DNA of 33,384 nt from positions 1 to 33,384 of the forward strand of contig CADEGL010000011.1 in assembly GCA_902826885.1 (NCBI GenBank), in the 5' to 3' direction. Positions 2,153-20,021 of the stretch are shown piece by piece (position 1 is the stretch's first letter; every line of letters starts with the position of its first letter). The stretch comes from an uncultured Alphaproteobacteria bacterium (lineage in GTDB: Bacteria; Pseudomonadota; Alphaproteobacteria; CADEGL01). Below the pieces are notes generated by a model. It was not told the DNA's origin and searched no databases. It saw nothing but the letters and a program-made list of their open reading frames with translations. A program made the position numbers and the translations under genes.

Positions 2153-3283
2153 ATGAGCACAAAGAAGATCGATTTCGCCGGACTCAAAGCACAGTACGCG
2201 CGCATCAAGCCCGAGGTCGCGCGCCGCATCCAGACCGTTCTGGACCACGGCCAGTTCATCTTGGGGCCGGAAGTCGCCGAACTGGAAGCAGCCCTGGCCA
2301 AGCGCGCCGGTGCCAAGCATGCGATCGGCGTTTCAAGCGGCACCGACGCCTTGATCATGGCGCTGATGGCCGAGGGAATCGGCGCGGGCGACGCCGTCTT
2401 CGTGCCGTCGTTCACCTTCACCGCGTCAGCCGAGGTCGTTCTGCTGCTCGGCGCGACACCCGTCTTTGTCGAGGTCGACGCGCGCACCTTCAACATCGAC
2501 ACGGCCGATCTGGACCGCCGCGTGGGCGAGGTCGCGCGCGAAGGCAAACTACTGCCGCGTGCCGTGATTTCCGTCGATCTGTTCGGCCAGCCGGCCGACT
2601 ACGGCACGCTGGACACGCTGTGCCGGCGGCACGCGCTGTTCCTGATCGCGGACGCGGCGCAAAGCTATGGCGCGAAGCTGGGCAACCGCGCGGTGGGCGC
2701 ATTGGCGCCCGCGACGGCGGCCAGCTTTTTTCCCGCCAAGCCGCTCGGCGCTTATGGCGACGGCGGCGCGCTTCTCACCGACAACGACGAGCGCGCCGCG
2801 CACTACGTCTCTATCCGCGCCCACGGCAAGGGCGGCGACAAGTACGACATCGTGCGCCTAGGCTTGAACGCGCGCCTGGATACCCTGCAGGCCGCGATCC
2901 TGATGGCCAAGCTGACGGTCTTCGACGATGAGTTGGCCGCGCGCGAGCGGTTGGCCAAGCTGTATGACGAACGGCTGAAGGGCGCGGTCGAAACCCCGCA
3001 TCGCGTACCGGATTCGGCCAGCGCTTGGGCGCAATACTGCATCCTGGTCGACCGCCGTGACGAAGTCGCGCGCGCATTGAAAGAAGAAGGCGTGCCAACC
3101 GCCGTCTATTATCCGCGGCCCATGCACCTGCAGACGGCCTACGCGCGCTTCGGCGAAGGTCCCGGCTCCTTGCCCGTCAGCGAGCGCTTGAGCGAACGAG
3201 TCCTGGCCTTGCCGATGAACCCCTACCTCGACGCCGCCGGCGCCGAGCACGTCTGCGCCGCCGTGCGTCGCGCCGTTCAGTGA
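2153..3283 (+). CDS. wbpE: DegT/DnrJ/EryC1 PLP aminotransferase, WbpE/WlbC-like
   Basis: The 376-aa protein matches the length and layout of the DegT/DnrJ/EryC1 sugar aminotransferases. It shows the substrate/PLP loop SSGTDALIMAL, the PLP-Asp segment IADAAQSYGA, and the Schiff-base lysine in SFFPAKPLGAYGDGG (Lys about 196). The Q-x-S/A after the Asp is typical. In the WbpBDE pathway this enzyme transfers an amino group from glutamate to the 3-keto uronic acid made by WbpB, and WbpD then acetylates it. It starts 4 nt after the WbpD-like stop and ends in a GTGA overlap with the GNAT gene. Family call is very strong; sugar specificity is inferred from the adjacent wbpB and wbpD homologues. Confidence 0.88.
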   Translation: MSTKKIDFAGLKAQYARIKPEVARRIQTVLDHGQFILGPEVAELEAALAKRAGAKHAIGVSSGTDALIMALMAEGIGAGDAVFVPSFTFTASAEVVLLLGATPVFVEVDARTFNIDTADLDRRVGEVAREGKLLPRAVISVDLFGQPADYGTLDTLCRRHALFLIADAAQSYGAKLGNRAVGALAPATAASFFPAKPLGAYGDGGALLTDNDERAAHYVSIRAHGKGGDKYDIVRLGLNARLDTLQAAILMAKLTVFDDELAARERLAKLYDERLKGAVETPHRVPDSASAWAQYCILVDRRDEVARALKEEGVPTAVYYPRPMHLQTAYARFGEGPGSLPVSERLSERVLALPMNPYLDAAGAEHVCAAVRRAVQ

Positions 3284-3735
3284 GCGCCGCGACCGGCAAA
3301 GATGGCGAGATCAGGACGCTTCAACGCCTCGATATCGAGGCTTTTTCGGATGCCTTCGTCGCCATTGCGGCCGACCAGCCCGGAGAATATTGGACGGCGA
3401 CGCATTTCATGCACGACTTGCCCGCGAAGTGGTCGCTCTCCTTCGCAGTCTGGTCGAGCGGCCGGCCGATCGCCTATGCGATCCTTTCGGCCAAGGGTGT
3501 CGGGCACGCCCATCTGCACCATTTCATGGTGAGCCCGGCGCACCGGGGCTCCGGCCTCGGCGCGCGCATGGCCGCCGAGATGGAGCGGCGCGTCGCGGAT
3601 GGCGGATTTTCCCGCCTGACGCTGAAGGCCGCCCTCGCCAATCCTCGCAGCTTGGATTTCTACCGCCGTCTAGGCTATCGCCGGCTCTCGGACGAAGGCG
3701 ATTATGCCTTCCTCGAGAAACGCCTTGCGCCATGA
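3280..3735 (+). CDS. GNAT family N-acetyltransferase
   Basis: The 151-aa protein is a single GNAT domain. The acetyl-CoA pyrophosphate-binding motif A is visible as HHFMVSPAHRGSGLGARMAAEM (RGSGLG is the Q/RxxGxG/A loop), followed by a C-terminal FYRRLGYRR segment that matches the usual GNAT alpha4/beta7 region. The start is GTG, overlapping the aminotransferase stop by GTGA, so it is co-translated with the amino-sugar genes. Its location suggests it acylates an amino group on a nucleotide sugar or another cluster product. It could instead be an unrelated acetyltransferase, since GNAT substrates cannot be predicted from this domain alone. The 28 nt to the next gene contain only a short leader. 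Confidence 0.78.
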   Translation: MSAATGKDGEIRTLQRLDIEAFSDAFVAIAADQPGEYWTATHFMHDLPAKWSLSFAVWSSGRPIAYAILSAKGVGHAHLHHFMVSPAHRGSGLGARMAAEMERRVADGGFSRLTLKAALANPRSLDFYRRLGYRRLSDEGDYAFLEKRLAP

Positions 3736-3763: not shown

Positions 3764-4468
3764 ATGATCGTAGCCATCCACCAACCCAACTATTTGCCGT
3801 GGCTCGGCTACTTTCACAAGATTTCGGCCGTCGACACGTTTGTCTTCTTCGACAACGTGCAGATGCCGATCGGGAAAAGTTTCGTTTCGCGCAACCGGAT
3901 CAAGACGCCTCAGGGTGAGCAGTGGCTGACCGTGCCGACCCATCGGGACAGCAATGGCCGTCCGATCGCCGAGACGGCTATCCAGCCGGGCAACTGGCCG
4001 CGCAAGCATCTGATGACGATCCGGACCGCCTATGCCGGATCACCATGGCTCGGGCCGGTCCTTGACGGTCTACAGCGCGAGTTCGGCACGGGCGAAGGCA
4101 CCATCGCCGATCTCAACATCCGTTTGGTGCGCATGTGCGCGGCGTTTATCGGATTGACCACCGTCAAGTTCCTCCGCGCGACCGAAATGGGACTCGCGAG
4201 CGCTGGGGCCGAGAGCGTGTATGAGATTCTCGACCGCACCGAAGCCAAGACCTACGTGACGGGCGCGGGTGCCGGAACCCAACGCACGATCGACGAAGAT
4301 GTGCTGGCGGGCCGGGGCGTCGCGGTGCGTTATCTGCCAAGCGCTTACCCGCAATACTCGCAGCGCCGCGGCGCGTTTATCGAGAATCTATCGATTTTGG
4401 ACGCAATGCTGAATTGCGGACCAGAAGGCACGCGGGCGTTGATCGGCGCGGCATCACCCTCCGATTGA
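3764..4468 (+). CDS. WbqC family protein
   Basis: The 234-aa protein carries the WbqC-family hallmark N-terminus IHQPNYLPWLGYFHKI, followed by the DTFVFFDNVQ segment and the NRIKTPQGEQWLTVP segment, and is close to the normal family length. WbqC-like proteins are found in O-antigen, capsule and flagellin-glycosylation clusters, usually beside amino-sugar aminotransferases and acyltransferases. Their biochemical role is not firmly established, and a transfer step onto an amino sugar has been the usual guess. Here it follows a DegT aminotransferase and a GNAT gene and shares one base with the next start (TGATG). Family identification is confident; function is not known from the sequence. Confidence 0.82.
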   Translation: MIVAIHQPNYLPWLGYFHKISAVDTFVFFDNVQMPIGKSFVSRNRIKTPQGEQWLTVPTHRDSNGRPIAETAIQPGNWPRKHLMTIRTAYAGSPWLGPVLDGLQREFGTGEGTIADLNIRLVRMCAAFIGLTTVKFLRATEMGLASAGAESVYEILDRTEAKTYVTGAGAGTQRTIDEDVLAGRGVAVRYLPSAYPQYSQRRGAFIENLSILDAMLNCGPEGTRALIGAASPSD

Positions 4469-5661
4469 TGCCGGAGACCCGCCCCTTGCGCGCCCTCTGC
4501 CTCGACATCGAAGGCGGATATGGCGGCTCTTCACGCAGCCTTTACGAATCCATCCGCCATCTGGATACGGCGAAGGCCGCCGCCGAGATCTGGTGCCGCC
4601 GCGAAGGCCCCATTCAACAACGCTACCAAGCGATCGGCGTCACGGCGCGGGTCACGCCCACGATGCCACGCTTCAGCGCGCTTCCGCGCCTGTCGAGAAA
4701 CATCTACGCCGCGGCGCGGGCGGCGTTGGAGTTTCGTCGCGCGGGCCCCTTCCTGACGGATCTTCAACGCGAAGCGGCGCGCTTTGACGTTATCCACTTC
4801 AACCACGAAGCCTTGTTTCCGACCGCGCGGTGGTTGCGCCATCGCACGGACCGGCCTCTGACCATGCATATCCGCACCAATCTGCTCGATACGCCGTTTG
4901 CGCGCTTTCAGATCCGCAGCATCTCGAACACGGTGGACCATCTGATCTTCATCACCGAGAACGAGGCCGAGACGTTCCGTCGCCTCGGCGGACGGCCGCG
5001 CGCCGCTAGCGTGATCTACAATATCGTCGACGTCCCCGCGGCGCCGCCGCCGCTCCACCCCGCGATTCCCGCCGACGGGCGGCTCAAGATCGCCTGCCTC
5101 AGCAATTACTCCTATGCGCGCGGCCTCGATCGTCTGGTCGACGTTGCTGACGTGTTGGCGCGGCGCGGCCGCCGAGTCTTGTTCGTGATGGCCGGTCAAA
5201 TGGCATTGACCGGCTCCATGCCGGGTCTCTTGGGCGCATTGGGCCGGCAGGGCGGCAGCCTGTCCGATTTCGCCGCCGCGCGCGGCCGGTCGGACATGTT
5301 TCAGTTCCTGGGCCATGTGCGGGAACCCGAATCCGTCTTGGCGGCCTGCGACGCCTTGGCCAAACCGACGCGAGAGAACAATCCCTGGGGCCGCGACACG
5401 CTGGAGGCGCTGGCTCTCGGCAAACCCGTTCTGACCTGCGGCCGCTATGCCGTCTTTGTCGAAGACGGCGTCACGGGCGTCCTACAGCCCGAGTTCGATG
5501 CGAATCGGCTGGCCGACGCCATCATGCGCCTCGACGACAACCGCGCCTTGGCACGGCGGATGGGCGAGGCAGGGCAGGCGCGCGTCCGCGCCCTTTGCGA
5601 CGGCCGCAGCCGTGCCCAGGATTTGCGCGCGGTCTGGGATGCGCAGCGAAGGGCCGCATGA
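4468..5661 (+). CDS. Glycosyltransferase, GT-B fold (GT4-like)
   Basis: The 397-aa protein looks like a two-domain GT-B enzyme. The N-terminal domain begins with the LDIEGGYGGSSRSLYESI loop, which resembles the acceptor-side GGxxRS loop of GT4 enzymes. The C-terminal domain has LKIACLSNYSYARGLDRLVDVA and a donor-binding segment with Glu residues (TRENNPWGRDTLEALALGKPVL). The start at 4468 is chosen because it overlaps the WbqC stop (TGATG) and lies just before the first beta strand; the frame is open to 4414 but that piece is a shadow of WbqC. It probably adds one sugar to the lipid-linked repeat unit at the inner membrane. Donor and acceptor cannot be deduced. Confidence 0.78.
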   Translation: MPETRPLRALCLDIEGGYGGSSRSLYESIRHLDTAKAAAEIWCRREGPIQQRYQAIGVTARVTPTMPRFSALPRLSRNIYAAARAALEFRRAGPFLTDLQREAARFDVIHFNHEALFPTARWLRHRTDRPLTMHIRTNLLDTPFARFQIRSISNTVDHLIFITENEAETFRRLGGRPRAASVIYNIVDVPAAPPPLHPAIPADGRLKIACLSNYSYARGLDRLVDVADVLARRGRRVLFVMAGQMALTGSMPGLLGALGRQGGSLSDFAAARGRSDMFQFLGHVREPESVLAACDALAKPTRENNPWGRDTLEALALGKPVLTCGRYAVFVEDGVTGVLQPEFDANRLADAIMRLDDNRALARRMGEAGQARVRALCDGRSRAQDLRAVWDAQRRAA

Positions 5662-7025
5662 CCGACGGCATCGCCCTGAACCGGCGAATGTTGGCGGCCA
5701 TCTTCCTCGGCGCGCTCGCCGTGCGGCTGATCAACCTGCTGCTCTTGTCCGGCGATCTGGGAAATTTCTTCCTGGAAGACGCCCATCTCTATTGGCCGGG
5801 TGGCGGCTATCTGAGCGTGATGGGACGATTCGATGCCCCGCCCGAACTCAGCGCCGGCAGCGGCGCCCCGGGCAGCGAACGCGTTCCGATCTACCTCTTC
5901 TATATCGCGGGCATCCGCATTCTGTTCGGCGACGCGCCGCTGGCCGCCATCATCGGCCAGGCGCTGATCGATGCCGGCACATGCGTCTTGATTGCCCTGT
6001 TGGGCGGCATGGTTTCGCGTCGCATCGGCATTGTCGCCGGCGCCCTGGCCGCTATCTGGCCGAACCTGATCGTGAACAGCGCCGCGCTTCTGTCCGACAC
6101 GCTGTTTCTTCTGATCTTCACGGCCATGCTGCTGGTCGCCGCGCATTATCTGCGCGACGCCGCGCCGCGCCGCGCGGGCTGGGCCGGGCTTCTGTGCGGC
6201 CTGTCGATCATGACGCGCACGGTAACGCAATTTCTGCCCTTTGCGCTGATCGCAGCAGCGCCCGCCATCGCGCTTTATCAGCGCAAGGGCATACGCACGG
6301 CACTATGGGCCACGCTTCTGGTGGCGCTGGGCGCGGCACTGCCGGTTGCGCCATGGCTGGGACGGAATGTCGCTTTGTTCGGCGCATGGGAACTGACCAC
6401 CCAGAAGGGCAGCCACCTGACGAACTGGGTATTGCCTTTGATCCGCCAAGCCCAAGACGGCACGCCGCACGAAACCGCCGCACGGGAGATCGAGGGACGG
6501 TTCTTCGACCGGTTGCGCTCCGAGGGGATCGAGCCCCAGACCATGCCGCCCTTCGAGCGCAGCAAGGCCTTCACCGCCCTGGCGATGGAGGAACTGTCCG
6601 CCCAGCCCGTCTCAGCCATCGCCAAGGCTTGGCTCAAGGGCGCGGCTGTCAATCTGGTGGCGCCCGCCATCACCGTGGACCCGCGCGTGCGCCGGGCACG
6701 GGAAGGCAGCTTTTACAACGATTCAAACCCAGGTCTGGCCGGCCGCATGCAGGCCTATCTGGCCACTTCGGCACCCGCGGTGCGACCGTGGATCGTGGGC
6801 GCCTTGGTCCTGAGCGTCCTATCCCTCGCCCTTCAAGGCTATGGCTTCGTCCGGCTGGCCCGGCGCCTGCCCTGGGCCGCGGTCTTCGCGGCTCTTCTTA
6901 TAGTCTATGTGCTGCTGGTCACCGGCCCGATCGTTTCGCCCAAATATCGCCTGCCCGCCGAGCCGGTCTTGATCGTCCTGGCCGCCATGGGATTAGACGG
7001 GGTTTTTCGCCGGCGGCCGCATTGA
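5658..7025 (+). CDS. Integral membrane glycosyltransferase, ArnT/PMT (GT39/GT83-like)
   Basis: The 455-aa protein has about ten hydrophobic segments. A first membrane span (residues 10-25) is followed by an acidic periplasmic loop with FLEDAHLYWPGGGY, resembling the catalytic Asp/Glu loop of the ArnT/PMT_2 family. Internal segments such as LCGLSIMTRTVTQFLPFALI and VSPKYRLPAEPVL are also characteristic. Such enzymes use polyprenyl-phosphate sugars on the periplasmic side. The start overlaps the upstream stop (ATGA at 5658-5661). The chosen start drops a 21-residue upstream extension that only shadows the previous gene. It may decorate the polymer or lipid A after export; the substrate is unknown. 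It ends the first tightly coupled block of the cluster, since a 94-nt gap follows. Confidence 0.75.
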   Translation: MTDGIALNRRMLAAIFLGALAVRLINLLLLSGDLGNFFLEDAHLYWPGGGYLSVMGRFDAPPELSAGSGAPGSERVPIYLFYIAGIRILFGDAPLAAIIGQALIDAGTCVLIALLGGMVSRRIGIVAGALAAIWPNLIVNSAALLSDTLFLLIFTAMLLVAAHYLRDAAPRRAGWAGLLCGLSIMTRTVTQFLPFALIAAAPAIALYQRKGIRTALWATLLVALGAALPVAPWLGRNVALFGAWELTTQKGSHLTNWVLPLIRQAQDGTPHETAAREIEGRFFDRLRSEGIEPQTMPPFERSKAFTALAMEELSAQPVSAIAKAWLKGAAVNLVAPAITVDPRVRRAREGSFYNDSNPGLAGRMQAYLATSAPAVRPWIVGALVLSVLSLALQGYGFVRLARRLPWAAVFAALLIVYVLLVTGPIVSPKYRLPAEPVLIVLAAMGLDGVFRRRPH

Positions 7026-7033
7026 GCCTTTCC

Positions 7034-7062
7034 TTGCTCTTTCCGCACCAAACTCCTATGGA
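7034..7062 (+). promoter_or_regulatory. Candidate sigma70-type promoter before the KAS III gene
   Basis: TTGCTC (7034-7039) and TATGGA (7057-7062) are separated by exactly 17 nt. They lie in the only sizeable gap (7026-7119) in the first half of the cluster, about 58 nt before the KAS III start. This is a pattern match only; no transcription evidence is available. Confidence 0.35.
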
Positions 7063-7119
7063 TTTGCCGCCCCGCCGCGTCGGCGCAACCTCTTGCTTGG
7101 CCCGCCTCTCTCACACGAC

Positions 7120-8064
7120 ATGATCGGCATCTCCGAGATCGCCACCTATATCCCGGCCGGGCGTGAGTCGAATCTCGACAAACTGTCGAAGTTCGGCATC
7201 ACGAAGGATTTCATCGACGAGAAGATCGGCGTCTACAGCGTCGCGCGGAAGGCGGCGAACGAAGATACCTCTGATCTGTGTATCGCCAGCTTCGCGCGCC
7301 TGCGCGAAAAGACGGGCATCGAGCCGGGCGATGTGGATTGCATCGTCGTCTGCACGCAAAACCCGGATGGGAACGGCTTGCCACATGTCTCGGCGCTGCT
7401 CCACGGCAAACTTGGCCTGCCGCGGCGTTGCGCCAGTTTTGACATCTCGCTCGGCTGTTCCGGGTTCGTCTATTCGCTGTCCATCCTGAAAGCGTTCATG
7501 GAGGCGAACGGCTTTCGCACGGGCCTTCTGTTCACCGCCGATCCCTATTCGAAGATCGTCGATCCGGACGACAAGAACACCGCCCTTTTGTTCGGCGACG
7601 GCGCGGCCGTGACGCTTCTGACGCGCGGTACGGTCAGCCAGCCGCTTCTTACCCCCGTGGCGTTCGATGTCGATTCGCACGGCGCGCAATCCTCGGCACT
7701 GATCAACACAACCGGCAGGCTCCACATGAACGGCCGCCAGGTTTTCACCTACTCGGCCACCGCGGTGCCGGAATCGATCCGCCGCGTACTGGACACGGCC
7801 GGGCTCGGCACCCAGGCGGTCGATTTCTTCCTGTTCCACCAGGGCAGTAAGTACATCGTCGATGCCGTCGCCAAACGGCTGGAGCTGCCCGCCGACAAGG
7901 TGGCGCGCAACATGACCGATCACGGCAATACCGTTTCATCGACGATCCCGATCCTGCTGGAGCCGCTGGTGCACGATGCGCGCGCTCAGCGCATCCTTGC
8001 CTGCGGCTTTGGCGTCGGCCTGTCCACGGCGACGTGCCTTTTGGAGCGGCAGGCGGACGCCTGA
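7120..8064 (+). CDS. 3-oxoacyl-ACP synthase III (FabH-like, KAS III)
   Basis: The 314-aa protein has a full KAS III catalytic triad: Cys113 in SLGCSGFVYSL, His240 in FLFHQGSKYI and Asn270 in DHGNTVSSTIP, at the spacing of FabH. The C-terminal GFGVGLSTATCLL glycine-rich strand is also typical. KAS III enzymes condense acyl-CoA with malonyl-ACP, or act as acyl-transferring thiolase-fold enzymes in specialised pathways. The start at ATG 7120 is chosen over an in-frame TTG at 7093 because IGISEIATYIP is the normal KAS III N-terminus. The gene lies between glycosyltransferases rather than beside fab genes, and no acyl carrier protein is nearby, so a role in making an acyl substituent for the glycan is inferred. 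A candidate promoter lies upstream. A housekeeping fabH cannot be excluded but is unlikely in this setting. Confidence 0.85.
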   Translation: MIGISEIATYIPAGRESNLDKLSKFGITKDFIDEKIGVYSVARKAANEDTSDLCIASFARLREKTGIEPGDVDCIVVCTQNPDGNGLPHVSALLHGKLGLPRRCASFDISLGCSGFVYSLSILKAFMEANGFRTGLLFTADPYSKIVDPDDKNTALLFGDGAAVTLLTRGTVSQPLLTPVAFDVDSHGAQSSALINTTGRLHMNGRQVFTYSATAVPESIRRVLDTAGLGTQAVDFFLFHQGSKYIVDAVAKRLELPADKVARNMTDHGNTVSSTIPILLEPLVHDARAQRILACGFGVGLSTATCLLERQADA

Positions 8065-9167
8065 GCACCGCGGCGGCCAAACCCATCGTCGTTTCCGCCC
8101 CGATCAAAACCGTCTTTGTTCTGCCGTCCTTCGCGGGCGGCGGCGCCGAGCGAGTCGTGCTCAACCTCGCAGGTGCGCTGGAGAGCAAGCGGTTCGCGGT
8201 CGAAATCGTCGTTCTGGATGGGCGCGGCCCGCTGGCCGCATTCGTGCCGTCCGGGATTCCGGTCCACGACCTTCACCGCCCCCGGCTTCGGCAGGCGATG
8301 CCCGCGCTGATGACGGCCCTGCGCCGCCTGCGGCCCCGCGCCGTGATCCCGACCCTCGGTTATTTGAACCTCGCGCTCCTCGCGGCCCGGCCGGTCCTTT
8401 CCGCCACCCGAATCTTCCCGCGCGAGGCCAATCTGCCGTCGGTGAGCATCGCCGCGTTGCCAAGTCCGATGCTCGGCCGCTTGGCCTATCAATTCCTCTA
8501 TCCGCGCGCGGATGGCGTTCTGTGCAACGCGCGCGTCGTGGCCGACGCGCTGGCGCGCGAATGCGGCGTTCCGACCGCGCGCATCCATCTGATCGATAAC
8601 CCCATCGACGTCGCCCAGATCCGTATCGCCGCCGCACCGGCCGTTCGCGCGGATGGCGCGGGGCTCCGCCTGGTCGCGGCCGGAAGGTTGACGCATCAGA
8701 AGGGCTTCGACCGGCTGATCGATCTGTTCGCCACCATGGCACCCGACGCACACCTCACGATCCTGGGCGACGGACCCGACCGTGCTTCGCTCGAAGCGCG
8801 CGCCAAGTCGCGCGACGTCGCGGCACGAATCTCTTTCAAGGGATTTCAAGCGCAACCCTGGCCCTTCTATGCGGGGGCCGACGCGTTTCTTTTGCCGTCG
8901 CGATGGGAGGGCATGCCAAACGCGGCGCTAGAAGCCTTGGCATGCGGCACGAAGGTAATCGCGACACCGGAGTCGGGCGGCATCGGCGAGGTAGCGGCTG
9001 CGGCCGTGCCAGGCGCTGTCATGGTCGGCCCGTGGGGTGAAGGGTTCGCCACGGCCTTGCGTACGGTACGCATCCAACCATCCGCGGCGGCGCGCGCAAG
9101 TCTTCTGCCCGAGCGCTTCACCTTGTCCCGCGCGACGGAATCCCTCGCGCGTATTCTCGCAGCATGA
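8034..9167 (+). CDS. Glycosyltransferase family 4 (GT-B)
   Basis: This GT4-type enzyme has the N-terminal loop VLPSFAGGGAERVVLNLA and a C-terminal donor site with the E-x7-E motif (PSRWEGMPNAALEALACG), preceded by LVAAGRLTHQKGFDRLIDLF and GDGPDR. It should transfer an activated sugar to the lipid-linked glycan on the cytoplasmic side. The start is uncertain. The only conventional in-frame start before the fold is GTG 8034, which overlaps the KAS III gene by 31 nt and has a poor ribosome-binding site. A CTG at 8061 would give the CTGA overlap resembling the ATGA/GTGA junctions seen elsewhere in this operon, with an AG-rich stretch before it. Only the first nine residues are affected. Family call is firm. 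Confidence 0.82.
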   Translation: MPFGAAGGRLSTAAAKPIVVSAPIKTVFVLPSFAGGGAERVVLNLAGALESKRFAVEIVVLDGRGPLAAFVPSGIPVHDLHRPRLRQAMPALMTALRRLRPRAVIPTLGYLNLALLAARPVLSATRIFPREANLPSVSIAALPSPMLGRLAYQFLYPRADGVLCNARVVADALARECGVPTARIHLIDNPIDVAQIRIAAAPAVRADGAGLRLVAAGRLTHQKGFDRLIDLFATMAPDAHLTILGDGPDRASLEARAKSRDVAARISFKGFQAQPWPFYAGADAFLLPSRWEGMPNAALEALACGTKVIATPESGGIGEVAAAAVPGAVMVGPWGEGFATALRTVRIQPSAAARASLLPERFTLSRATESLARILAA

Positions 9168-10266
9168 CCCCAGAACCCTTGCGCATCCTCCACGTCATCA
9201 CGGGTTTGGGTCTGGGCGGCGCCGAGAACATGCTGACCTCGCTGGTTTTGCACAGCGCCGATGCGGGCATGACGCCTACGGTCGTTTCCCTTACCCCCGG
9301 CGGCGAGAACGCCGCGCGCATCCGCGCGGCGGATGTGCCAGTCTCCGATCTCGGCATGCGCCGCGGCCTGCCCGACCCGCGCGCCGTGCGGACGCTGGCC
9401 CTGGCGATCCGCGCCGCGCGACCGCACATCATGCAAAGCTGGATGTATCACGCAGACCTGCTGGCGTTGGCCGCGCGCGCGACGTTGCCGCGCGGCGAGA
9501 GGCCCAGGCTGGTCTGGGGCGTGCGCTGTTCGGACATGGATGTCCGTCGCTATGGCCCCGCCCTGCGTCTGATCATCGCGGCATGCGCACGCCTGTCGGC
9601 CCGTCCCGAAGCGGTGCTGGTCAACTCCCATGCCGGGCGCGCCATCCACGAGCAGCTCGGCTACCGCCCTCGCCGTTTCGAGGTGGTGGAAAACGGCATC
9701 GACACCGACCGGTTCCGGCCCGACCCGGCCGCGCGCACCGAGATGCGGCGAACGCTCGGTCTGGCGCCGGACGGCATCGTCCTTGCCCATGTGGCGCGGC
9801 GCGACCCCATGAAGGATCACGAATCCTACCTGGCCGCGCTCGATCGCATGCCTCACGTCACGGGTCTTGCTATCGGGCTCGGCACCGAAACCTTGCCCGA
9901 GCGTCCCAATCTTCGCCGCCTGGGCCCGCGTACCGATGTGCCACGCCTTCTTGCCGCCGCGGACTTCGTGGTCTCCAGCTCGGCTTTCGGCGAAGGGTTC
10001 CCCAACGTCCTGGCCGAAGGCATGGCCACTGGCGCGCCCGCCATCGCGACCGATGTCGGCGATGCGGCGCGCATCGTGGGCGACACGGGCCGCATCGTGA
10101 AGCCGCGCGATGCAGGCGGTTTGGCCGCCGCGATCGCGGAATTGACCGGCGAAGATTCCACCGCGCGTACCGCGCGCCGCGCGCGGGCGCGGGCGCGCAT
10201 CGAGTCCGTCTACCCTTTGGCGCGCGCGGCCCAATCCTACGCCAGCCTCTACCGAAGCCTGCTCTG

Positions 10267-10267
<1 letters not shown>
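9164..10267 (+). CDS. Glycosyltransferase family 4 (GT-B)
   Basis: The 367-aa GT4 enzyme starts with the family-typical LHVITGLGLGGAENMLTSLV. It has the interdomain HAGRAIHEQLGY and NGIDTDRF segments, which mark the start of the donor domain, and the E-x7-E motif in SAFGEGFPNVLAEGMATG. ATG 9164 overlaps the previous stop (ATGA). It sits between another GT4 gene and the amidotransferase gene, consistent with successive sugar additions during repeat-unit assembly. Sequence alone does not reveal the donor sugar or linkage. Confidence 0.86.
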
Positions 10268-12164
<1,897 letters not shown>

Positions 12165-12168
<4 letters not shown>

Positions 12169-13289
12169 AGATCTGCCAGCTCTGCGCGGTCGACTTCACG
12201 CTTTATCATTTCCTTCTGCCGCTGATGGAGGGCATGCGCGACGCCGGACACGAGGTGATCGGCGTCTGCGCGGACGGCGCATTGGCCACCAAGGTGCGCG
12301 CAAAGGGCTTTCGGGTCGAGAATGTCTCCATCGCGCGCAGCTACGATCTGAAGCGGCACGCGCGTACGGCGAAGGCGCTGAAAGCGTTGTTCCAACGCGA
12401 ACGTTTCGATCTGGTGCACGTCCATACGCCGGTCGCCGCCATGGTGGGGCGTTACGCGGCCTGGCGCGCCGGCGTGCCGAAGATCGTCTACACCGCACAC
12501 GGATTCTATTTCCACGAGCACATGAAACTGCCGTTGCGCGCCGCCCATATCGGCCTCGAATGGTTGGGCGGGCGCGTGACCGACATGCTGTTCACCCAGG
12601 CCGAAGAAGACGCCGAGACCGCGCGGCGGCTCAATTTGTGCCGCGGTGGCCGCGTCCATGCTATCGGCAACGGCGTCGAGGCCGCGCAGTTTCAACGTGC
12701 CGATGCCGCCGCCCGCGCGCGGACGCGCGCGCAGCTGCGAACGCCGGAAGACGCCGTCGTCATCACCATGATCGGCCGTCTGGTCGCCGAGAAAGGCTAT
12801 GTCGAGCTGTTCGAAGCCATGCGCAAGAACAACGCGGTCCTGTGGGTGGTGGGAGACCGGCTGCGCAGCGACCACGCCTCGGGCATCGATACCATCGTCG
12901 AGGCCGTGAAGAAGGACTTGGCCCTGGGGCCGCGCATCCGTTTCCTGGGCTACCGCCAAGACGTCCCAAACCTTCTCGCCGCATCCGACATCTTCACCCT
13001 GCCATCCTACCGCGAGGGCATGCCGCGCTCGATCATCGAGGCCATGATGACCGGCCTGCCCGTGGTGGCGACCGATATCCGTGGCGCGCGCGAGGAAGTG
13101 ATCGATGACGAAACCGGTTTCCTGGTGCCGGTGCGCAACCCGGCCGCGCTGGGCGCGGCGCTGGCCAAGCTGGTAGCCGACCCGTCCTTGCGCGCGCGCA
13201 TGGGCGCGGCGGGGCGCGTGCGCGCGCTCGATCTCTACGATGAAGCCAAAGTGGTGCGCCGCGAGCTGGACCTGATCGCCAGCCTCTGA
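12165..13289 (+). CDS. Glycosyltransferase family 4 (GT-B)
   Basis: The 374-aa protein begins ICQLCAVDFTLYHFLLPLM and contains VHVHTPVAAMVGRYAA. This N-terminal layout is typical of GT4 enzymes that extend undecaprenyl-diphosphate-linked amino sugars (PglA/WbpH-like). The donor domain has ITMIGRLVAEKGYVELFEAM and the E-x7-E motif in YREGMPRSIIEAMMTG. GTG 12165 overlaps the amidotransferase stop (GTGA). The gene ends 3 nt before the convergent FkbM gene, with no visible terminator between. It is likely the transferase acting early on the lipid carrier, but specificity is not readable. Confidence 0.85.
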
Positions 13290-13292
13290 CCC

Positions 13293-14078
13293 TTAATCCG
13301 GCCGCCAGAGAATCTCGCCGTCCTGCGGCGCCGAGATCGCCTGGGGGCCGTCCTTGGCGCCGACCAGATAAGGCCGGTAGCCGCGCCGCTCGAGCGAAGC
13401 CCAGACCGTTTCGAGCGTATCGCCCGCCCGCGCCAGGTGCGAGCCGATCAGCTCCAGCATCAGCGCCGGCCGGAACCGCTCCAGCGTCTCTTGGGCGCCC
13501 GCGAGCATCCGCCCCTCCCAACCTTCCACGTCGGCTTTGATGAAATCCACGCGGCGCAAGGCGCGCGCGCGGACGAACGTGTCCATGGTTCCGATCTCGA
13601 CCGTCTCGGTGCGCATGGGACCGGCGCGGTCCGGTCTGCCCAGATGACTGAGGCCGAAGCCGTAAGCGCCGCTCCGCTTGATCGGCATGGCGAGCCGCGC
13701 TTGGCCCGGCGCGTCGCCCAGCCCCGACGCCACGATCTCCACATTCGCCAGACGCCGCCAGCGCACGGTTCGCGTCAGGATCGAGCGCGCATAACTTCCC
13801 GGCTCAAAGGCATAAACCTGGCCTTGCGGCGCGAGGCTCGCGAACAATTTGGCGAACTGGCCCGCATGGGCACCGACGTCAAGCACGACCCCATCGCTGG
13901 GCAGTAACGGGCGCAGCGTCGGCACAAGCTCGCGGTGATGGTCGTAAGCGAACGCCTTCCACAGATGGGCGGCGTAACGCACCCGGCCGGGCCAGGCCAG
14001 TTCGCGCCAATCGAACGGACCATCGCGGGAGGGCGTGGAGGACGGCTGCATGGGCGCCATCAAGCACGCATCACCCAT
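13293..14078 (-). CDS. FkbM family methyltransferase
   Basis: The protein of about 261 aa is a SAM-dependent FkbM-type methyltransferase. It has the SAM-binding motif VVLDVGAHAGQFAKLFA, the following acidic loop VYAFEPGSYAR, and the FkbM-specific VDFIKADVEGWEGRMLAGA with its Asp-Glu pair. Such enzymes commonly O-methylate sugars or glycan ends. It is the only gene of the polysaccharide locus on the minus strand, convergent with the GT4 gene (3-nt gap) and divergent from the O-antigen ligase-like gene. The start is uncertain: ATG 14078 is chosen, with ATG 14060 and a TTG at 14087 also in frame and no strong ribosome-binding site. It may cap or terminate the polymer, or decorate a monosaccharide. 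Confidence 0.83.
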   Translation of the reverse strand: MGDACLMAPMQPSSTPSRDGPFDWRELAWPGRVRYAAHLWKAFAYDHHRELVPTLRPLLPSDGVVLDVGAHAGQFAKLFASLAPQGQVYAFEPGSYARSILTRTVRWRRLANVEIVASGLGDAPGQARLAMPIKRSGAYGFGLSHLGRPDRAGPMRTETVEIGTMDTFVRARALRRVDFIKADVEGWEGRMLAGAQETLERFRPALMLELIGSHLARAGDTLETVWASLERRGYRPYLVGAKDGPQAISAPQDGEILWRPD

Positions 14079-14138
14079 ACTGGGCAACCGCCGGTTTCTC
14101 CGGTTGACCGCCCCGCGGGGTTCGGGGATACAGCTTCG

Positions 14139-15380
14139 GTGGCCGCCACAAGACGACTGATCCCGATTCTAGCCGGTGCCGCATTCCTGGCCATGCCGCT
14201 GGGCGTGCTGGCGCCGATGCAGCTCGCAACCTTGGCCGCGATCGCGGCTCCTCTATGCGTCGTTTTCGGCTGGCGGGTGTTGCGCGAAAGCGATCACGCG
14301 CCGCGCGTGCTTCTTGTCTCCCTCGTGCTTCTCGTGGCCTGGATGGCGGCCAGCGCGTTGTGGACCGTCAACGTCCACTTCACCCTGATCGAGACGGCAC
14401 GCTTCGGCCTGATGGTCCTGGGCGGGCTGATCTTGGTCGCCGCCGCACGCGCGCTGGATGCGCGCGGACGCCAATCCGTCGGCAATTGGTTCATGGCCGG
14501 CTTCGTCGTGGGGTTGGCGATCCTGGCCTTCGAGATCGCGACCGAAGGGTTGCTGTTGCGCTCGGCCTGGTGGGTAATCGGCCTGGATAAACGCTTCATA
14601 TTTTCCGTCACCTACAACCGGGCGACGTCCGCGATCGGCGTGCTGGCCTGGCCGGCCGCCTTGTTCTTCCTCCAGCGGAGAGCGCCAGTGATCGCCGCCA
14701 TCGCGCTGGCGACCGGCGCTTTCCTGGTTCAGGACCTGCAGAAATGGGCGTCCCTGATCGCGCTTCTGTCGGGCGCCGTGGTCTTCGGAGCGGCGCTTTT
14801 GTCCGCGCGCGTGACGGCGCGTGTTCTGGCCGCGTGCGTTGCCCTTTTGCTGCTCGCGGCACCCATCCTGCCCCGCACCGTCCTGGCGCCGGACGCCGTG
14901 GTGCGCGCCTATCCGGACATCGCCTTTTCCGAATATCACCGCATACTGATCTGGGACTTCGCCGCCAAGCGCATCGCCGAGCGGCCGATCCTCGGTTGGG
15001 GCATGAACAGCGCGCGCGTCATGCCGGGCGGCAAGGATACCGCGCCGACGGACATCCCAGGCCGCACGCGCGGCACAGGCGATAAGCCTGTCGAGCTGAT
15101 GCCGCTCCACCCGCACAACACGCCGCTGCAACTTTGGCTGGAGTTGGGGGTGCCCGGCGTCCTCCTGGCCGCGATCCTGATCACGGGCCTGCTTCTTTTG
15201 GCCGCGCGCCATCCCGCGGGACCGATGGCGCGCGCGGCTAGCCTGGCCACGGTTACCAGCGTCATCGCCATCGCGGCCATGAGCTTCAGCATGTGGCAAA
15301 GCTGGTGGCTTTCCGTGGTTTGGCTGGCCGTCATGCTCCTGACCAGCGCCGCGCCGCCCCCTGAAAGGGCGCGGCCATGA
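14139..15380 (+). CDS. O-antigen ligase/polymerase family membrane protein (Wzy/WaaL-like)
   Basis: The 413-aa protein has about 11-12 hydrophobic segments and a large loop that carries RILIWDFAAKRIAERPILGWGMNSARV and PHNTPLQLWLELGVPGVLL. This is the hallmark of the Wzy_C/O-antigen ligase fold, with the conserved His of the H-x-H-N-type motif. It acts in the inner membrane on periplasmic lipid-linked glycans, either polymerising repeat units or ligating them to lipid A-core. GTG 14139 is chosen because it follows a GGGGA site (14124-14128) and precedes the first span; the frame upstream only overlaps the FkbM gene in antisense. The stop overlaps the next ATG. Whether it is polymerase or ligase cannot be decided. 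Confidence 0.8.
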   Translation: MAATRRLIPILAGAAFLAMPLGVLAPMQLATLAAIAAPLCVVFGWRVLRESDHAPRVLLVSLVLLVAWMAASALWTVNVHFTLIETARFGLMVLGGLILVAAARALDARGRQSVGNWFMAGFVVGLAILAFEIATEGLLLRSAWWVIGLDKRFIFSVTYNRATSAIGVLAWPAALFFLQRRAPVIAAIALATGAFLVQDLQKWASLIALLSGAVVFGAALLSARVTARVLAACVALLLLAAPILPRTVLAPDAVVRAYPDIAFSEYHRILIWDFAAKRIAERPILGWGMNSARVMPGGKDTAPTDIPGRTRGTGDKPVELMPLHPHNTPLQLWLELGVPGVLLAAILITGLLLLAARHPAGPMARAASLATVTSVIAIAAMSFSMWQSWWLSVVWLAVMLLTSAAPPPERARP

Positions 15381-16375
15381 CAGGCTTCGCCCTCGCGCTT
15401 CTCGGCCTGTCCGTCGCCGGGCTGACCTGGCTCGCGACGCGTGCCGTGCTGGGCTTGCTGGTCCGGCGCGCGATCCTGGACCGGCCGAACGAGCGCTCCA
15501 GCCACGACACGCCGACGCCGCGCGGCGGCGGCATCGCGGTGGTCGCCGTCCTTGTTCCCGCCTGGATCGCGGCCGCGCTCCTCAGCGGCGCGACGGTGCC
15601 ATGGCCGGTGCTGGGCGGGGCGCTGTTCCTCGCCGCCGTGTCCTGGCGCGACGACGTGAAGAGCCTCGGCATCCTTTGGCGCCTGGGCGTGCAGGTCCTG
15701 GCCGTCGCCTGCGGCCTGGCCGCGATCGACGGGCCTGTGTTCCGCGGCATTCTGCCCGCCTGGCTCGATACGCTGGCGGCGGGCTTCCTGTGGCTGTGGT
15801 TCGTCAACCTCTACAACTTCATGGACGGCATCGACGGCATCGCCGCGATCGAGACGGCGTCGATCGGCGGCGGCGTGGCGCTGGTGGCGCTGGGCGCCGC
15901 CATGGGACCCGCCGGCACCGCGGCCTGGGGCATCGCCCTGGCCGCCGCGGCGCTGGGATTCCTGCCGTGGAACTGGCAGCGCGCCAAGCTGTTCCTGGGC
16001 GACGTGGGCAGCGTGCCGCTCGGCTATCTCGCGGGCTGGCTGCTTCTGTCACTGGCCGCCGCGGGCGCGTGGAAGGCCGCGCTGATCCTGCCGCTCTATT
16101 ACCTGGCCGATGCCACGATCACGCTGTTGCGCCGGCTCAAGCGCGGCGAAAAGGTCTGGCGCGCACATCGCGAGCATTACTATCAGCGCGCGGTGCAGGG
16201 CGGCATGAGCCACGCGTCCGTGGTGAAAGCCGTCCTAGCCGGCAACCTGGCGCTGGCCGGCCTGGCGCTTGGGGCCGAGACGGGGTTGGGTACCTTGGCC
16301 CTCGTCATGGCCGGCACGGTGGCCGCGATTCTCCTTTATCGCCTGACCTTCGCCCACGCGCCGGGACCCGCCTGA
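15377..16375 (+). CDS. Undecaprenyl-phosphate HexNAc-1-phosphate transferase, WecA/WbpL family (GT4/MraY)
   Basis: The 332-aa polytopic protein belongs to the MraY/WecA superfamily. Visible catalytic features are DRPNERSSHDTPTPRGGG in the first loop, the DD pair in SWRDDVKSLG, NFMDGIDGIAAIE with its Asp residues, LFLGDVGSVPLGYL, and the C-terminal HREHYYQRAVQGG with its sugar-phosphate His. Such enzymes start O-antigen synthesis by moving a HexNAc-1-phosphate from UDP-sugar to undecaprenyl phosphate in the inner membrane. It is coupled to the ligase/polymerase-like gene (ATGA) and followed by the WbpM-like gene, the classical wbpL-wbpM pairing. The HxHY-type C-terminal motif favours the WbpL/WecA branch over MraY. 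The exact first sugar is unknown. Confidence 0.87.
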   Translation: MTGFALALLGLSVAGLTWLATRAVLGLLVRRAILDRPNERSSHDTPTPRGGGIAVVAVLVPAWIAAALLSGATVPWPVLGGALFLAAVSWRDDVKSLGILWRLGVQVLAVACGLAAIDGPVFRGILPAWLDTLAAGFLWLWFVNLYNFMDGIDGIAAIETASIGGGVALVALGAAMGPAGTAAWGIALAAAALGFLPWNWQRAKLFLGDVGSVPLGYLAGWLLLSLAAAGAWKAALILPLYYLADATITLLRRLKRGEKVWRAHREHYYQRAVQGGMSHASVVKAVLAGNLALAGLALGAETGLGTLALVMAGTVAAILLYRLTFAHAPGPA

Positions 16376-16471
16376 TCCAGCGCGGATTATGGTTTTCCGG
16401 CCCCTATGCTATGGTCGCCGTGGCGCGCGCGTCCGTGCCGCCGCCCTGTCCGCCGCAGCCTCGAAGGACGG

Positions 16472-18397
16472 ATGAAGCCGATCCGCATCAGCCGCGCCCG
16501 CATCGCCTTTTTCCACGACGTGGTCATGGCCGCGCTGTCCTTCGTCGCGGCGCTGTATTTGCGCCTGGGCGACAACATCTCGGAATATCCACCCGATTCG
16601 ATCCTGCTTTGGACGGCCCTGTTCACCGCCGTATGCGGCGTGGTCTTCGCGTCGATGAGTCTGTATCGCGGCATCTGGCGCTATGCCTCGCTCGACGACA
16701 TCCTGGGCATCGCCAAGGCCGTTACATTGGCCATTCTGGTCTTCCTGCCGGTGATGTTCCTGCTGACCCGCCTGCAGGACCTTCCGCGTTCCCTGCTCGT
16801 CATCAATTGGTTCGTGCTGCTGGCGCTTCTCGGCGGACCGCGCGTCCTCTACCGCATCTTCAAGGATCGCAGCGTCGAGGCCGTTTTGGTGCGCGACGGC
16901 CACCAGCGCGTGCCCGTTCTGATGTTGGGCGCGGGCGACGGAACCGAGTTGTTCATCCGCGCAACGCGCCATCGGCCAGGCGCCGGCTATCGCGTCGTCG
17001 GCATCGTCGACGACAAGGGCACGCGTATCGGCCGGCGCATTCACGGCGTGCCCGTGATGGGCGGAGTGGAGGCGTTGGCCGATATCGTGCAACGCCTCGC
17101 GCGCAACGGCACGCGACCGCAGCGCCTGGTGGTGACCGCCGAAGGTTTCGACGGCATGCGCATGCGCGCCTTGCTCGAGGCCGCGTCGGTCAACGGCATG
17201 GCGCTGGCGCGGTTGCCGCGATTGACCGATTTGAAGTCCGGCGCGGCCGACGAGGTGGAGATCCGGCCCGTCGCGATCGAGGATCTTTTGGGCCGGCCGC
17301 AGGCGGCCCTCGACCGCGAAGGCATGCGCGCGCTGATTGCCGGACAGCGCGTCATGGTGACCGGCGCGGGCGGCACCATCGGCAGCGAATTGGCGCGCCA
17401 GATCGCCGATTTCGGCCCGTCGCACCTGACCCTGCTCGATAACGGCGAGTACAATCTTTACCTGATAGACCAAGAGATGGGCGAACGCGCGCTGTCCGTG
17501 CCGCGCGCCGCGGTTCTGTGCGATGTCCGCGACCGCGAGGCCACGGCGCGCGCGATTGACGAGGCCAAGCCCGAACTGGTTTTCCATGCTGCGGCGTTGA
17601 AGCATGTGCCATTGGTTGAAACCAACGTGGTCGAAGGCGTGATGACCAACGCCATCGGGACGCGCAACGTGGCCGATGCCTGCCGCGCGGCGGGCGTACG
17701 CGCCATGATGCTGATCTCGACCGACAAGGCCGTGAATCCGACCAATGTGATGGGCGCCACCAAGCGGGTGGCCGAAAGCTACTGCCAGGCGCTCGATTTG
17801 GTGGATGCCCAGCGCGAGGGCGGCACGCGCTTCCTGACCGTGCGCTTTGGCAACGTGCTGGGCTCGACGGGCTCCGTCGTGCCGCTGTTCCAACGTCAAA
17901 TCGCTGCGGGCGGGCCCGTGACCGTGACCCATCCCGAGATCACGCGTTACTTCATGACCACCCACGAAGCCGTCGAGCTGGTGCTGCAGGCAACGGCGCT
18001 TGGCGTCCATGCGCCCAAGGATTCCGGCAAGATCTACGTCCTCGACATGGGCGAGCCGGTGAAGATTGCCGACCTGGCGCGCCAAATGATCCGCCTGTCG
18101 GGCTTGCGTCCCGACCATGATATCCAGATCCGTTTTACCGGCCTGCGCCCCGGCGAGAAGTTGTATGAGGAGCTTCTGCACGATTCCGAGCAGCCGATTC
18201 CGACCGACCGCGGCGGCATCCTTCTGGCCGCGCCGCGCGCGGTGGACCACGCCTTCCTGTCGCGCGCCATGGACGAATTGGCCGAGACCGCCGCGCAGGG
18301 CCGGGCGGTGCAGGCCGTGACGATCCTGGCGCGCCTGGTGCCGGAGGGACAACTGACGGCCTCCTCGCCACCGACACCGTCCGCGGCGGTGCGGTGA
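16472..18397 (+). CDS. wbpM: UDP-GlcNAc 4,6-dehydratase, WbpM/CapD-like membrane protein
   Basis: The 641-aa protein has an N-terminal half with four hydrophobic segments (residues about 10-120), a CoA-binding-like middle domain ([11 protein letters not shown]), and a C-terminal SDR domain. The SDR domain has a [18 protein letters not shown] motif near residue 297. The catalytic set is Ser416, Met427 and Lys431 (VMGATKR), so Tyr of the classical SDR motif is replaced by Met as in WbpM. These enzymes convert UDP-GlcNAc to a 4-keto-6-deoxy sugar, the precursor of QuiNAc/FucNAc. ATG 16472 follows AAGGA; in-frame open sequence reaches 16406 but lacks support. A TGCTATGGT extended -10-like element lies at 16407-16415 in the 96-nt gap, so it may have its own promoter. 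Confidence 0.88.
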
Positions 18398-18440: not shown

Positions 18441-20021
18441 ATGACGAACTTGGTTCCGATTCGCCGTGCCCTTCTGTCCGTTTCCGACAAGACCGGTTTG
18501 GTTGAGTTCGGCCGCTATCTGGCCAGCAAAGGCGTCGAGCTTCTGTCGACGGGCGGCACCGCCAAGGCGTTGGCCGAAGCCGGTGTGCCCGTGAAGGACG
18601 TCTCGGACCATACGGGCTTCCCCGAAATGTTGGATGGACGCGTCAAGACGCTGCATCCCGCCATTCATGGCGGTTTGCTGGCGCGGCGCGACTTGGCCGA
18701 ACACACGGCGGCCCTAGCCAAGCACAAGATCGCGCCGATCGACCTTTTGGTCGTGAATCTTTATCCGTTCGAAGCCACCGTCGCGCGCGGCGCCTCCTTC
18801 GAGGATTGCATCGAGAATATCGACATCGGCGGTCCTGCCTTGATCCGCGGCGCTTCCAAGAATCACGACTTTGTGGCCGTTGTCGTCGAGCCAGCGGATT
18901 TCGAATCGGTCCGCGCCGAAATGGAATCCAACAAAGGCGCCACCACGTTAGCCTTGCGGCGCAAGCTGGCTGCCAAGGCCTATGCCCGCACCGGCGCCTA
19001 CGACGCCGCGATTTCGGACTGGTTCGCCAAGCAGGAAGGCGAGGCCTTCCCCGAGCGCTTGGTCCTATCCGGCACGCGCGCCCAACTCATGCGGTATGGC
19101 GAGAATCCCCACCAAGCGGCCGCGTTCTATTTGGGCGGCGATGCCCGTCCGGGCGTCGGTACGGCCAAACAGCTTCAGGGCAAAGAGCTGAGCTACAACA
19201 ATCTGAACGATGCCGACGCCGCCTTCGAGCTGGTGGCCGAGTTCGCGAAGCCGGCCGTGGTGATCGTGAAGCACGCCAATCCGAGCGGCGTGGCCGTGGG
19301 CGACAGCCTGCCGCCGGCCTATGCCCGTGCCTTGGCCTGCGATCCGGTCAGCGCCTTCGGCGGTATCGTCGCGGTCAACCGCGCATTAGACCGGGAAACG
19401 GCGGAAGCCATCGCCAAGTTATTCGCCGAGGTGGTGATCGCGCCGTCCTATGACGATGGCGCGCGCGCCGCGCTGGCGGACAAAAAAAATCTGCGCCTCT
19501 TGGAAACGGGCACCATGCCCGACCCCGCGGCACATTCGCGCACCGTGCGCACGCTGGCGGGCGGCTATTTGGTGCAGGCGCGCGACAACGGGCGCGTTAG
19601 CCGCGAATCCCTAAAGGTCGTGACGAAGCGCGCGCCCACGGCGAAGGAACTGGACGACCTTCTGTTTGCCTTCTCGGTCTGCAAGCACGTCAAGTCCAAC
19701 GCCATCGTCTACGCCAAGGACGGTGCTACCGTTGGTATCGGCGCGGGTCAGATGAGCCGCGTGGATTCCAGCCGCATGGCGGCGGAGAAGGCACGCTTGG
19801 CGTCGGAGGCCGCGGGCGAAACGGAAAGTCGCGCCAAGAACTCCGTGGTCGCGTCCGACGCGTTCTTCCCCTTCCCCGATGGGCTGATCGCCGCGGCGGA
19901 AGCGGGCGTCACCGCCGTGATCCAACCCGGCGGCTCGATGCGCGACAACGAGGTGATCGCCGCCGCCGACGAGCGCGGCCTGGCCATGGTGATGACCGGC
20001 GTCCGGCATTTCCGGCACTAG
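18441..20021 (+). CDS. purH: Bifunctional AICAR formyltransferase/IMP cyclohydrolase
   Basis: The 526-aa protein is full length for PurH and catalyses the last two steps of de novo purine synthesis. The N-terminal IMP cyclohydrolase domain (about 1-200) has [20 protein letters not shown] and the [16 protein letters not shown] signature. The C-terminal AICAR transformylase domain contains LRYGENPHQ-like sequence ([12 protein letters not shown]), the catalytic Lys-His pair in [12 protein letters not shown], and a C-terminal [13 protein letters not shown]. The start is ATG 18441 with a weak upstream ribosome-binding site. It stands just downstream of the polysaccharide locus, separated by 43 nt with no clear terminator, and ends 6 nt before the convergent transporter gene. 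It is a housekeeping gene that marks the end of the variable region. Confidence 0.97.

Follow-up and report, generated by a model that had tools for sequence, protein, structure and literature searches.

The only FabH-like KAS III found in the genome of this uncultured alphaproteobacterium is encoded at positions 7120-8064 (forward strand; P0001) of the 33,384-nucleotide stretch analysed here (the window), among genes of glycan synthesis. Judged from its relatives, it appears to descend from the KAS IIIs of sugar-acylation cassettes, and on balance we consider it probable that it now does the job of a housekeeping FabH that the cell has lost. What appears new is that a glycan-type KAS III would stand in for fabH: searches of an open-access library, judged mostly by title or the start of the abstract, gave no published description of such a case. 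KAS IIIs proposed to serve amino sugars, and second KAS IIIs feeding fatty acid synthesis, are already known.

The protein and its single-copy status

The open reading frame has zero internal stops and encodes 314 aa. Its product passes both Pfam models (ACP_syn_III, 71.4 bits with a cut-off of 24; ACP_syn_III_C, 78.3 bits with a cut-off of 26.6). The three FabH catalytic residues, reported as intact in a first-pass annotation of the window, are indeed present: Cys113, His240 and Asn270 are invariant in 42 of 42 aligned KAS III rows (5 from the family described below, 12 of cassette type, 3 of vio type, 5 of purH type and 17 canonical alphaproteobacterial). An AlphaFold2 model built from nine sequences (pLDDT 88.1, pTM 0.90) found only KAS III-type enzymes, mostly FabHs, among its best 50 PDB matches, with a 3-oxoacyl-ACP synthase III (3gwa) first and TM values of 0.83-0.87 (normalised by query); the predicted fold is that of a KAS III. 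The alignment also revealed differences from the FabHs of the class at four positions which we take to contact CoA or ACP in canonical FabH: Trp is replaced by Phe31, Arg by Lys35, Asn by Ser243 (HQAN to HQGS) and Arg by Tyr245. The cassette types share these changes, and the vio and purH types share them in part.

The source genome (G000), a draft assembly of 134 contigs (96.87% complete, 4.71% contaminated), was compared with four other genomes, all MAGs, of the same alphaproteobacterial family (f1; G001-G004). The family genomes are drafts, 87-100% complete, and the absences reported here rest on sequence searches of those drafts. Exactly one KAS III match (E <= 1e-10) was obtained per family genome, with orthologs 96, 69, 65 and 66% identical to the window protein; apart from the window gene, matches in the source genome were limited to two weak ones (26% identity). 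Outside the family, this query picked up a KAS III at 27-34% identity in 34 of 36 genomes (with a second in G015 and none in G027 or G034) and was therefore sensitive enough. Searches with PF08541 gave one strong match in each of the five genomes, namely the window gene or its ortholog, and a weaker match over the cut-off in G000 and G001 (28-34 bits); PF08545 matched the window gene and one type III PKS-like protein in G000. The latter, the second PF08545/PF08541 match of the source genome (C3, L005; 353 aa), was rejected as a FabH, as it scored only 54 bits on the FabH model. Its best NCBIfam match was of DpgA type (146 bits, under the cut-off of 425), its neighbour is ICMT-like by eye, and by these matches it resembles a type III PKS. 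The window gene is the sole FabH-like KAS III in the source genome and in all five family genomes examined, a status missed from one window and one that the first-pass annotation had itself named as refuting its glycan reading.

In 24 of 25 KAS III loci of the class (L011-L035), plsX is found within the same short region as the KAS III gene. The window gene lies outside the plsX-fabH-ihfA position, and in all five family genomes plsX and ihfA adjoin, in that order, without an intervening fabH (in G000 as rpmF-plsX-ihfA). For G000, where only 446 bases of contig remain after plsX, a canonical fabH lost beyond the contig edge was considered and rejected, because ihfA occupies those bases and comes next after plsX in the other four genomes as well. 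In G003 plsX is read in two overlapping frames (G003:C148:1605-2563), a frameshift in either the MAG or the gene. Further genes of fatty acid synthesis are present in G000 as fabD (end, by eye)-fabG-acpP-fabF and as fabA-fabB-fabI, the latter three all over their NCBIfam equivalog cut-offs. According to PMC8666670, the malonyl-ACP decarboxylase family MadA/MadB lets E. coli live without FabH. No member of this family (YiiD_C, PF09500) was found in the five family genomes; among the 16 genomes searched only G647 had one, and the E. coli control was positive.

Two further observations concern ketosynthases more widely. Of 385 class genomes, 32 (G034, G058, G100, G106, G119 and others), several of them nearly complete, gave nothing at E <= 1e-15 in the KAS III search; in some alphaproteobacteria fatty acid synthesis may begin without a KAS III, or with one that has diverged strongly. 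Elsewhere in the source genome (L137; G000:C7:38001-52000), two ketosynthase-like genes flank a FabG-like gene (by eye) in what looks like an aryl-polyene-type cluster.

Relatives and ancestry of the gene

Housekeeping FabH (TIGR00747) shares with the window KAS III its fold, Cys-His-Asn triad, size and proposed reaction, but the window protein falls under the curated cut-offs, with 178.2 bits on TIGR00747 (cut-off 292.1) and 208.5 bits on NF006829 (cut-off 249), as compared to 413.8 and 430.2 for a canonical FabH (L140). It is only 27-34% identical to the FabHs of the class.

Closer relatives were found in other company. The five family orthologs, scanned against a genome collection, matched eight loci. 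Besides those of the four other family genomes, these came from two Lentisphaerota MAGs (53%), from Aquimarina sp. MMG016 (46%) and from Ruminococcus flavefaciens (34%). In Aquimarina (L093), genes for a 210-aa protein, KAS III, ACP, an LpxD-like hexapeptide acyltransferase and NeuB lie in a nonulosonate run (pseudaminic acid by eye); in one Lentisphaerota locus (L092), KAS III lies between Polysacc_synt_2 and DegT genes, in PseB/PseC order. Relatives within the class were G073 (L131; 50%), with NeuB (by eye), an LpxD-like gene, a 204-aa protein, KAS III and ACP, and G153 (43%), in a PKS/NRPS-like cluster with an ACP (by eye). The plasmid search yielded Pontibrevibacter (L154; 52.6%), with ACP, a hexapeptide protein, a 203-aa protein, KAS III, FdtA and DegT, and a vio-type KAS III of Burkholderia glumae (pBGF3; 35%), with vioA, ACP, an SDR and an acetyltransferase. 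Across the phylum (E <= 1e-46), 6 of 397 other genomes matched, namely G501 (37%) and five members of a single genus (45-48%). Three of these five were read (L158-L160), and in them KAS III lies in a flagellar gene cluster, with FlgK, flagellin and FliD around it in L158 (Pfam). By an acyl-amino-sugar cassette we mean a KAS III accompanied by an ACP and a hexapeptide acyltransferase, LpxD-like or not, next to NeuB/PseI or FdtA/DegT genes.

A protein of about 204 aa without a Pfam match directly precedes KAS III in three such cassettes (L093:9357-9989, L131:1802-2416, L154:14378-14989) from Bacteroidota and Alphaproteobacteria; mutual identity is 21-27%, and it may be a partner of the cassette KAS III. 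On a Pseudomonas veronii plasmid (L155:9136-12930), a KAS III 45% identical to the window protein follows phbB and phbC, an arrangement that suggests acetoacetyl units made by KAS III for PHB.

In a tree of 49 hand-picked rows (of four 'other' loci, L111 was omitted as the same gene as L133), the family KAS IIIs formed a clade (100/98) within the cassette clade (100/99), and their nearest neighbour was the Pontibrevibacter protein (93/88). The bootstrap of this first tree was not fully settled; in a second tree minus six rows, mostly long-branched, the family stayed in the cassette clade (100/99). The phylogeny against housekeeping FabH that the first-pass annotation had proposed as a check came out in its favour, and descent in common with the FabHs of the class, imposed as one clade, was rejected (AU test, p = 6.57e-06). 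Members of the cassette clade come from N-acyl-amino-sugar cassettes, from a PHB operon and from a flagellin locus. These sequence comparisons give good support to a glycan-acylation ancestry, because the nearest non-family relatives occupy acyl-amino-sugar cassettes; those nearest by tree (Aquimarina, G073 and Pontibrevibacter) are 46-53% identical to the window KAS III and carry ACP, a hexapeptide acyltransferase and the protein of about 204 aa. As a control, a second, canonical-type KAS III (28-29% to the query) was found in all four named hosts (both Lentisphaerota, Aquimarina and Ruminococcus), adjoining plsX in both Lentisphaerota, and G073 and G153 keep a canonical plsX-fabH. The presence of the cassette enzyme alone therefore does not go with fabH loss.

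Comparable enzymes have been described. It has been proposed that the KAS III VioS of Pseudomonas syringae makes the acyl group for an amino sugar (PMC3927599) and that wfpC/D/E/F/G of Flavobacterium psychrophilum provide an amino-sugar acylation step (PMC6519341). The first-pass annotation had called such a product not predicted by standard O-antigen pathways, which was too strong given these published proposals. Like the window gene, the viosamine-island KAS IIIs of P. syringae and B. glumae lie within a glycan gene set; VioS has its own ACP and reductase, whereas the window gene has neither and belongs to the cassette clade rather than the vio type. The flagellin-linked KAS IIIs of L158-L160, at 45-48% identity, are presumably orthologs of PP_4379 (PpFabH1). 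In Pseudomonas putida this enzyme is an acetyl-CoA-using KAS III of fatty acid synthesis (PMC12490732), the same role as proposed here. G647, the genome among L158-L160 that was checked for MadB, has it, unlike the window-gene family with no PF09500 match. FabW of R. solanacearum (RSp0194) is a divergent second KAS III able to feed fatty acid synthesis (PMC4549310); it prefers octanoyl-CoA and its host keeps FabH, whereas no canonical fabH was found in the host of the window KAS III.

The glycan locus and selective constraint

Upstream of KAS III, all on the forward strand, lie genes encoding a Gfo/Idh/MocA oxidoreductase, a putative sugar dehydrogenase (593-1588; Pfam 82 bits; best NCBIfam match UDP-GlcNAc 3-dehydrogenase, below its cut-off), a left-handed beta-helix (hexapeptide) acyltransferase (1585-2148; Pfam Hexapep; NeuD/PglB/VioB model below cut-off), a DegT/DnrJ/EryC1 sugar aminotransferase (2153-3283; Pfam 334 bits), a GNAT acetyltransferase (3280-3735; Pfam), a WbqC-like protein (3764-4468; Pfam 196 bits), a GT4 glycosyltransferase (4465-5661) and, as direct flank, a PMT_2-type membrane glycosyltransferase candidate (5661-7025). 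The downstream flank is a GT4 glycosyltransferase (8034-9167, true start uncertain), so that the gene does lie between glycosyltransferases, as first annotated. Beyond it are two further GT4 glycosyltransferases (9164-10267 and 12165-13289) on either side of an asparagine synthase-like amidotransferase (10276-12168), an FkbM-family methyltransferase on the reverse strand (13293-14054), an O-antigen ligase/polymerase (Wzy_C; 14007-15380, start picked by eye), a WecA-like polyprenyl-P sugar-1-P transferase (Glycos_transf_4; 15377-16375), a CapD-like nucleotide-sugar dehydratase (Polysacc_synt_2; 16406-18397) and purH (18441-20021), all forward apart from FkbM. purH serves as a landmark, as KAS III lies beside it in several families.

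The early remark that no ACP is nearby was borne out: tblastn with six ACPs, including the genome's own acpP, gave no hit, either in the window or among the nine other family loci searched. The cassettes' protein of about 204 aa was likewise absent from the window and the family loci searched, and the hexapeptide protein at 1585-2148 is only about 24-25% identical to the LpxD-like cassette transferases; by sequence, the locus appears to lack the dedicated ACP and adjacent LpxD-like acyltransferase of a cassette. A promoter of its own, also proposed for the gene, found no backing. A sigma-70 consensus scan of 6800-8200 gave 0 sites (0.2 expected), a weak scan that leaves room for an alphaproteobacterial promoter, and in G002 the stop of the gene before it and the KAS III start share bases (ATGA), an overlap indicative of translational coupling to the glycan operon. 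What had been observed from the window alone thus held for reading frame, triad, flanks and lack of an ACP, and failed for the promoter.

KAS III is kept in all five family genomes while its neighbours change. Among the four family loci that reach far enough, the GNAT ortholog is present in two (G000 and G002) and absent from two (G001 and G004), WbqC is present in all four, and the PMT_2-type gene is kept in three of four testable loci. Three family genomes (G000-G002) showed orthologs of CapD, WecA and Wzy, and fewer genes separate KAS III from purH in G003. The suggestion that KAS III supplies an acyl group for the GNAT or WbqC step agrees with the glycan-acylation ancestry, but GNAT is inconstant and no acyl-ACP tie was found for WbqC.

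Between G000 and G001, dN/dS of KAS III was 0.034 (Nei-Gojobori, rough where dS > 1), the lowest of 17 window genes measured, a set that leaves out FkbM and GNAT (no ortholog in G001). The 13 other glycan-locus genes ranged from 0.092 to 0.231; purH, MFS and GDH gave 0.063, 0.079 and 0.108. The same comparison gave 0.029 for plsX, 0.027 for acpP, 0.027 for fabB, 0.037 for fabG, 0.058 for fabA, 0.067 for fabF and 0.082 for fabI. The constraint on KAS III matches that on the fab genes (0.027-0.082), unlike that on its glycan neighbours.

Probable replacement of FabH and its alternatives

The proposed course of the reaction is as follows: KAS III would load an acetyl group (most likely) from acetyl-CoA onto Cys113 and condense it with malonyl-ACP, the general AcpP being the carrier, with His240 and Asn270 serving the decarboxylative Claisen step, in an overall FabH-type ping-pong. 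The acetoacetyl-ACP formed would be processed and elongated by FabG, a FabA/FabZ-type dehydratase, FabI and FabB/FabF. Sequence shows the catalytic triad, the sole copy, the fabH-less junction, the cassette ancestry and the strong constraint, together with a predicted fold; activity, substrate and essentiality are what we infer; the single-copy status lends indirect support to initiation from acetyl-CoA, and a preference for acetyl would follow by analogy with PpFabH1 and the P. veronii PHB operon. Counting for replacement are the sole copy and fabH-less junction in five of five genomes, the presence of the other fatty acid synthesis genes with no PF09500 match, the low dN/dS, the canonical FabH kept by cassette hosts and a parallel case. 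Counting against it are the place within a glycan operon (coupled in G002), the changed CoA/ACP contacts, the draft state of the genomes and the class genomes in which no KAS III match was obtained. In addition, the FabB of P. putida F1 reportedly initiates fatty acid synthesis, and E. coli survives without FabH (PMC8666670), so that initiation by FabB/FabF is possible.

The parallel case lies in two other families, f125 (G235) and f76 (G083, G198, G292, G369), each genome with one KAS III match at 34-37%. In these purH-type loci (L133, L134, L145, L146, L147) the only KAS III match of the sampled genomes is vio-related. CapD- and WecA-like genes lie between KAS III and purH in G235 and G198; in G083, G369 and G292 the order is rpe, heparinase, KAS III, inositol-phosphatase family gene, purH (Pfam for G083 only), and no glycosyltransferases were recognised by eye beside KAS III. 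ihfA follows plsX without fabH in G083, G369, G235 and G132, the last also with a single KAS III; beside plsX in G292 no fabH-like ORF was found, nor was ihfA picked there, and no plsX match, hence no junction result, was obtained for G198. The purH-type KAS IIIs form their own clade (100/100), joined with the vio type (100/99), and two of them scored 210 on the FabH model, against the cut-off of 292. They were rejected as the same gene as the window KAS III (one clade: AU test, p = 3.0e-05): both lie at or near purH, yet in different clades. The pattern in f76 and f125, with canonical fabH gone and a VioS-related KAS III next to purH (in one genus lacking glycan genes there), arose independently of that in the window-gene family. 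Where fabH is gone and a glycan-type KAS III has no glycan genes around it, FabH replacement is the best explanation, which favours reading the window gene in the same way.

An exclusive role in the glycan is unlikely. The enzyme would make a 3-oxoacyl-ACP, to be reduced by FabG and moved to an amino sugar by the hexapeptide acyltransferase (1585-2148) or another, while fatty acid synthesis would start without KAS III, e.g. through FabB/FabF once malonyl-ACP is decarboxylated. The nesting in the cassette clade, an aminotransferase and a hexapeptide acyltransferase in the same locus, the VioS and wfpC-G precedents, and a Pse-type nonulosonate gene set on the KAS III contig of G001 (L051; some members named by eye) all fit this role. 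It accords poorly with the absent cassette partners, the GNAT in half of the loci, a constraint far beyond that of any glycan neighbour measured, the coincidence of fabH loss with KAS III presence in five of five genomes, and the f76 equivalent standing without glycan genes. The original interpretation is therefore supported in part, as to an ancestry apart from housekeeping FabH, and is weakened by the sole copy and the missing partners.

We give a similarly low probability to dual use, in which one enzyme would prime fatty acid synthesis and, through the general AcpP, supply a short 3-oxo- or 3-hydroxyacyl chain for a surface amino sugar, with one committed step shared. Cassette ancestry, a retained place in the glycan locus, the coupling in G002, sole-copy status and housekeeping-level constraint are all consistent with it, but the analysis turned up no N-acyltransferase dedicated to acyl-ACP, and the hexapeptide protein is distant from the cassette transferases. 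That a canonical fabH exists and is merely missing from the drafts, incomplete and slightly contaminated as the source genome is, seems very improbable, as plsX and ihfA are joined without it in five separate assemblies, one estimated as 100% complete, and a relocated copy would need to be missing from all five.

FabH is a textbook housekeeping gene and a standard drug target. If its replacement by the window KAS III is real, a core step was handed to a mobile gene, fabH being excised from its operon and replaced from a variable surface-sugar locus, and enzymes of this kind would be natural variants in the FabH role with altered CoA/ACP contacts. A broader and doubtful proposal is that, within Alphaproteobacteria, KAS IIIs of glycan acylation took the place of housekeeping FabH on two or more occasions, each of the two at or close to purH, and that the enzyme captured by the window-gene family serves both fatty acids and a surface amino sugar; membrane and glycan synthesis would then be tied to one enzyme in an O-antigen-type locus. 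For annotators the warning is that such an 'O-antigen gene' may be essential.
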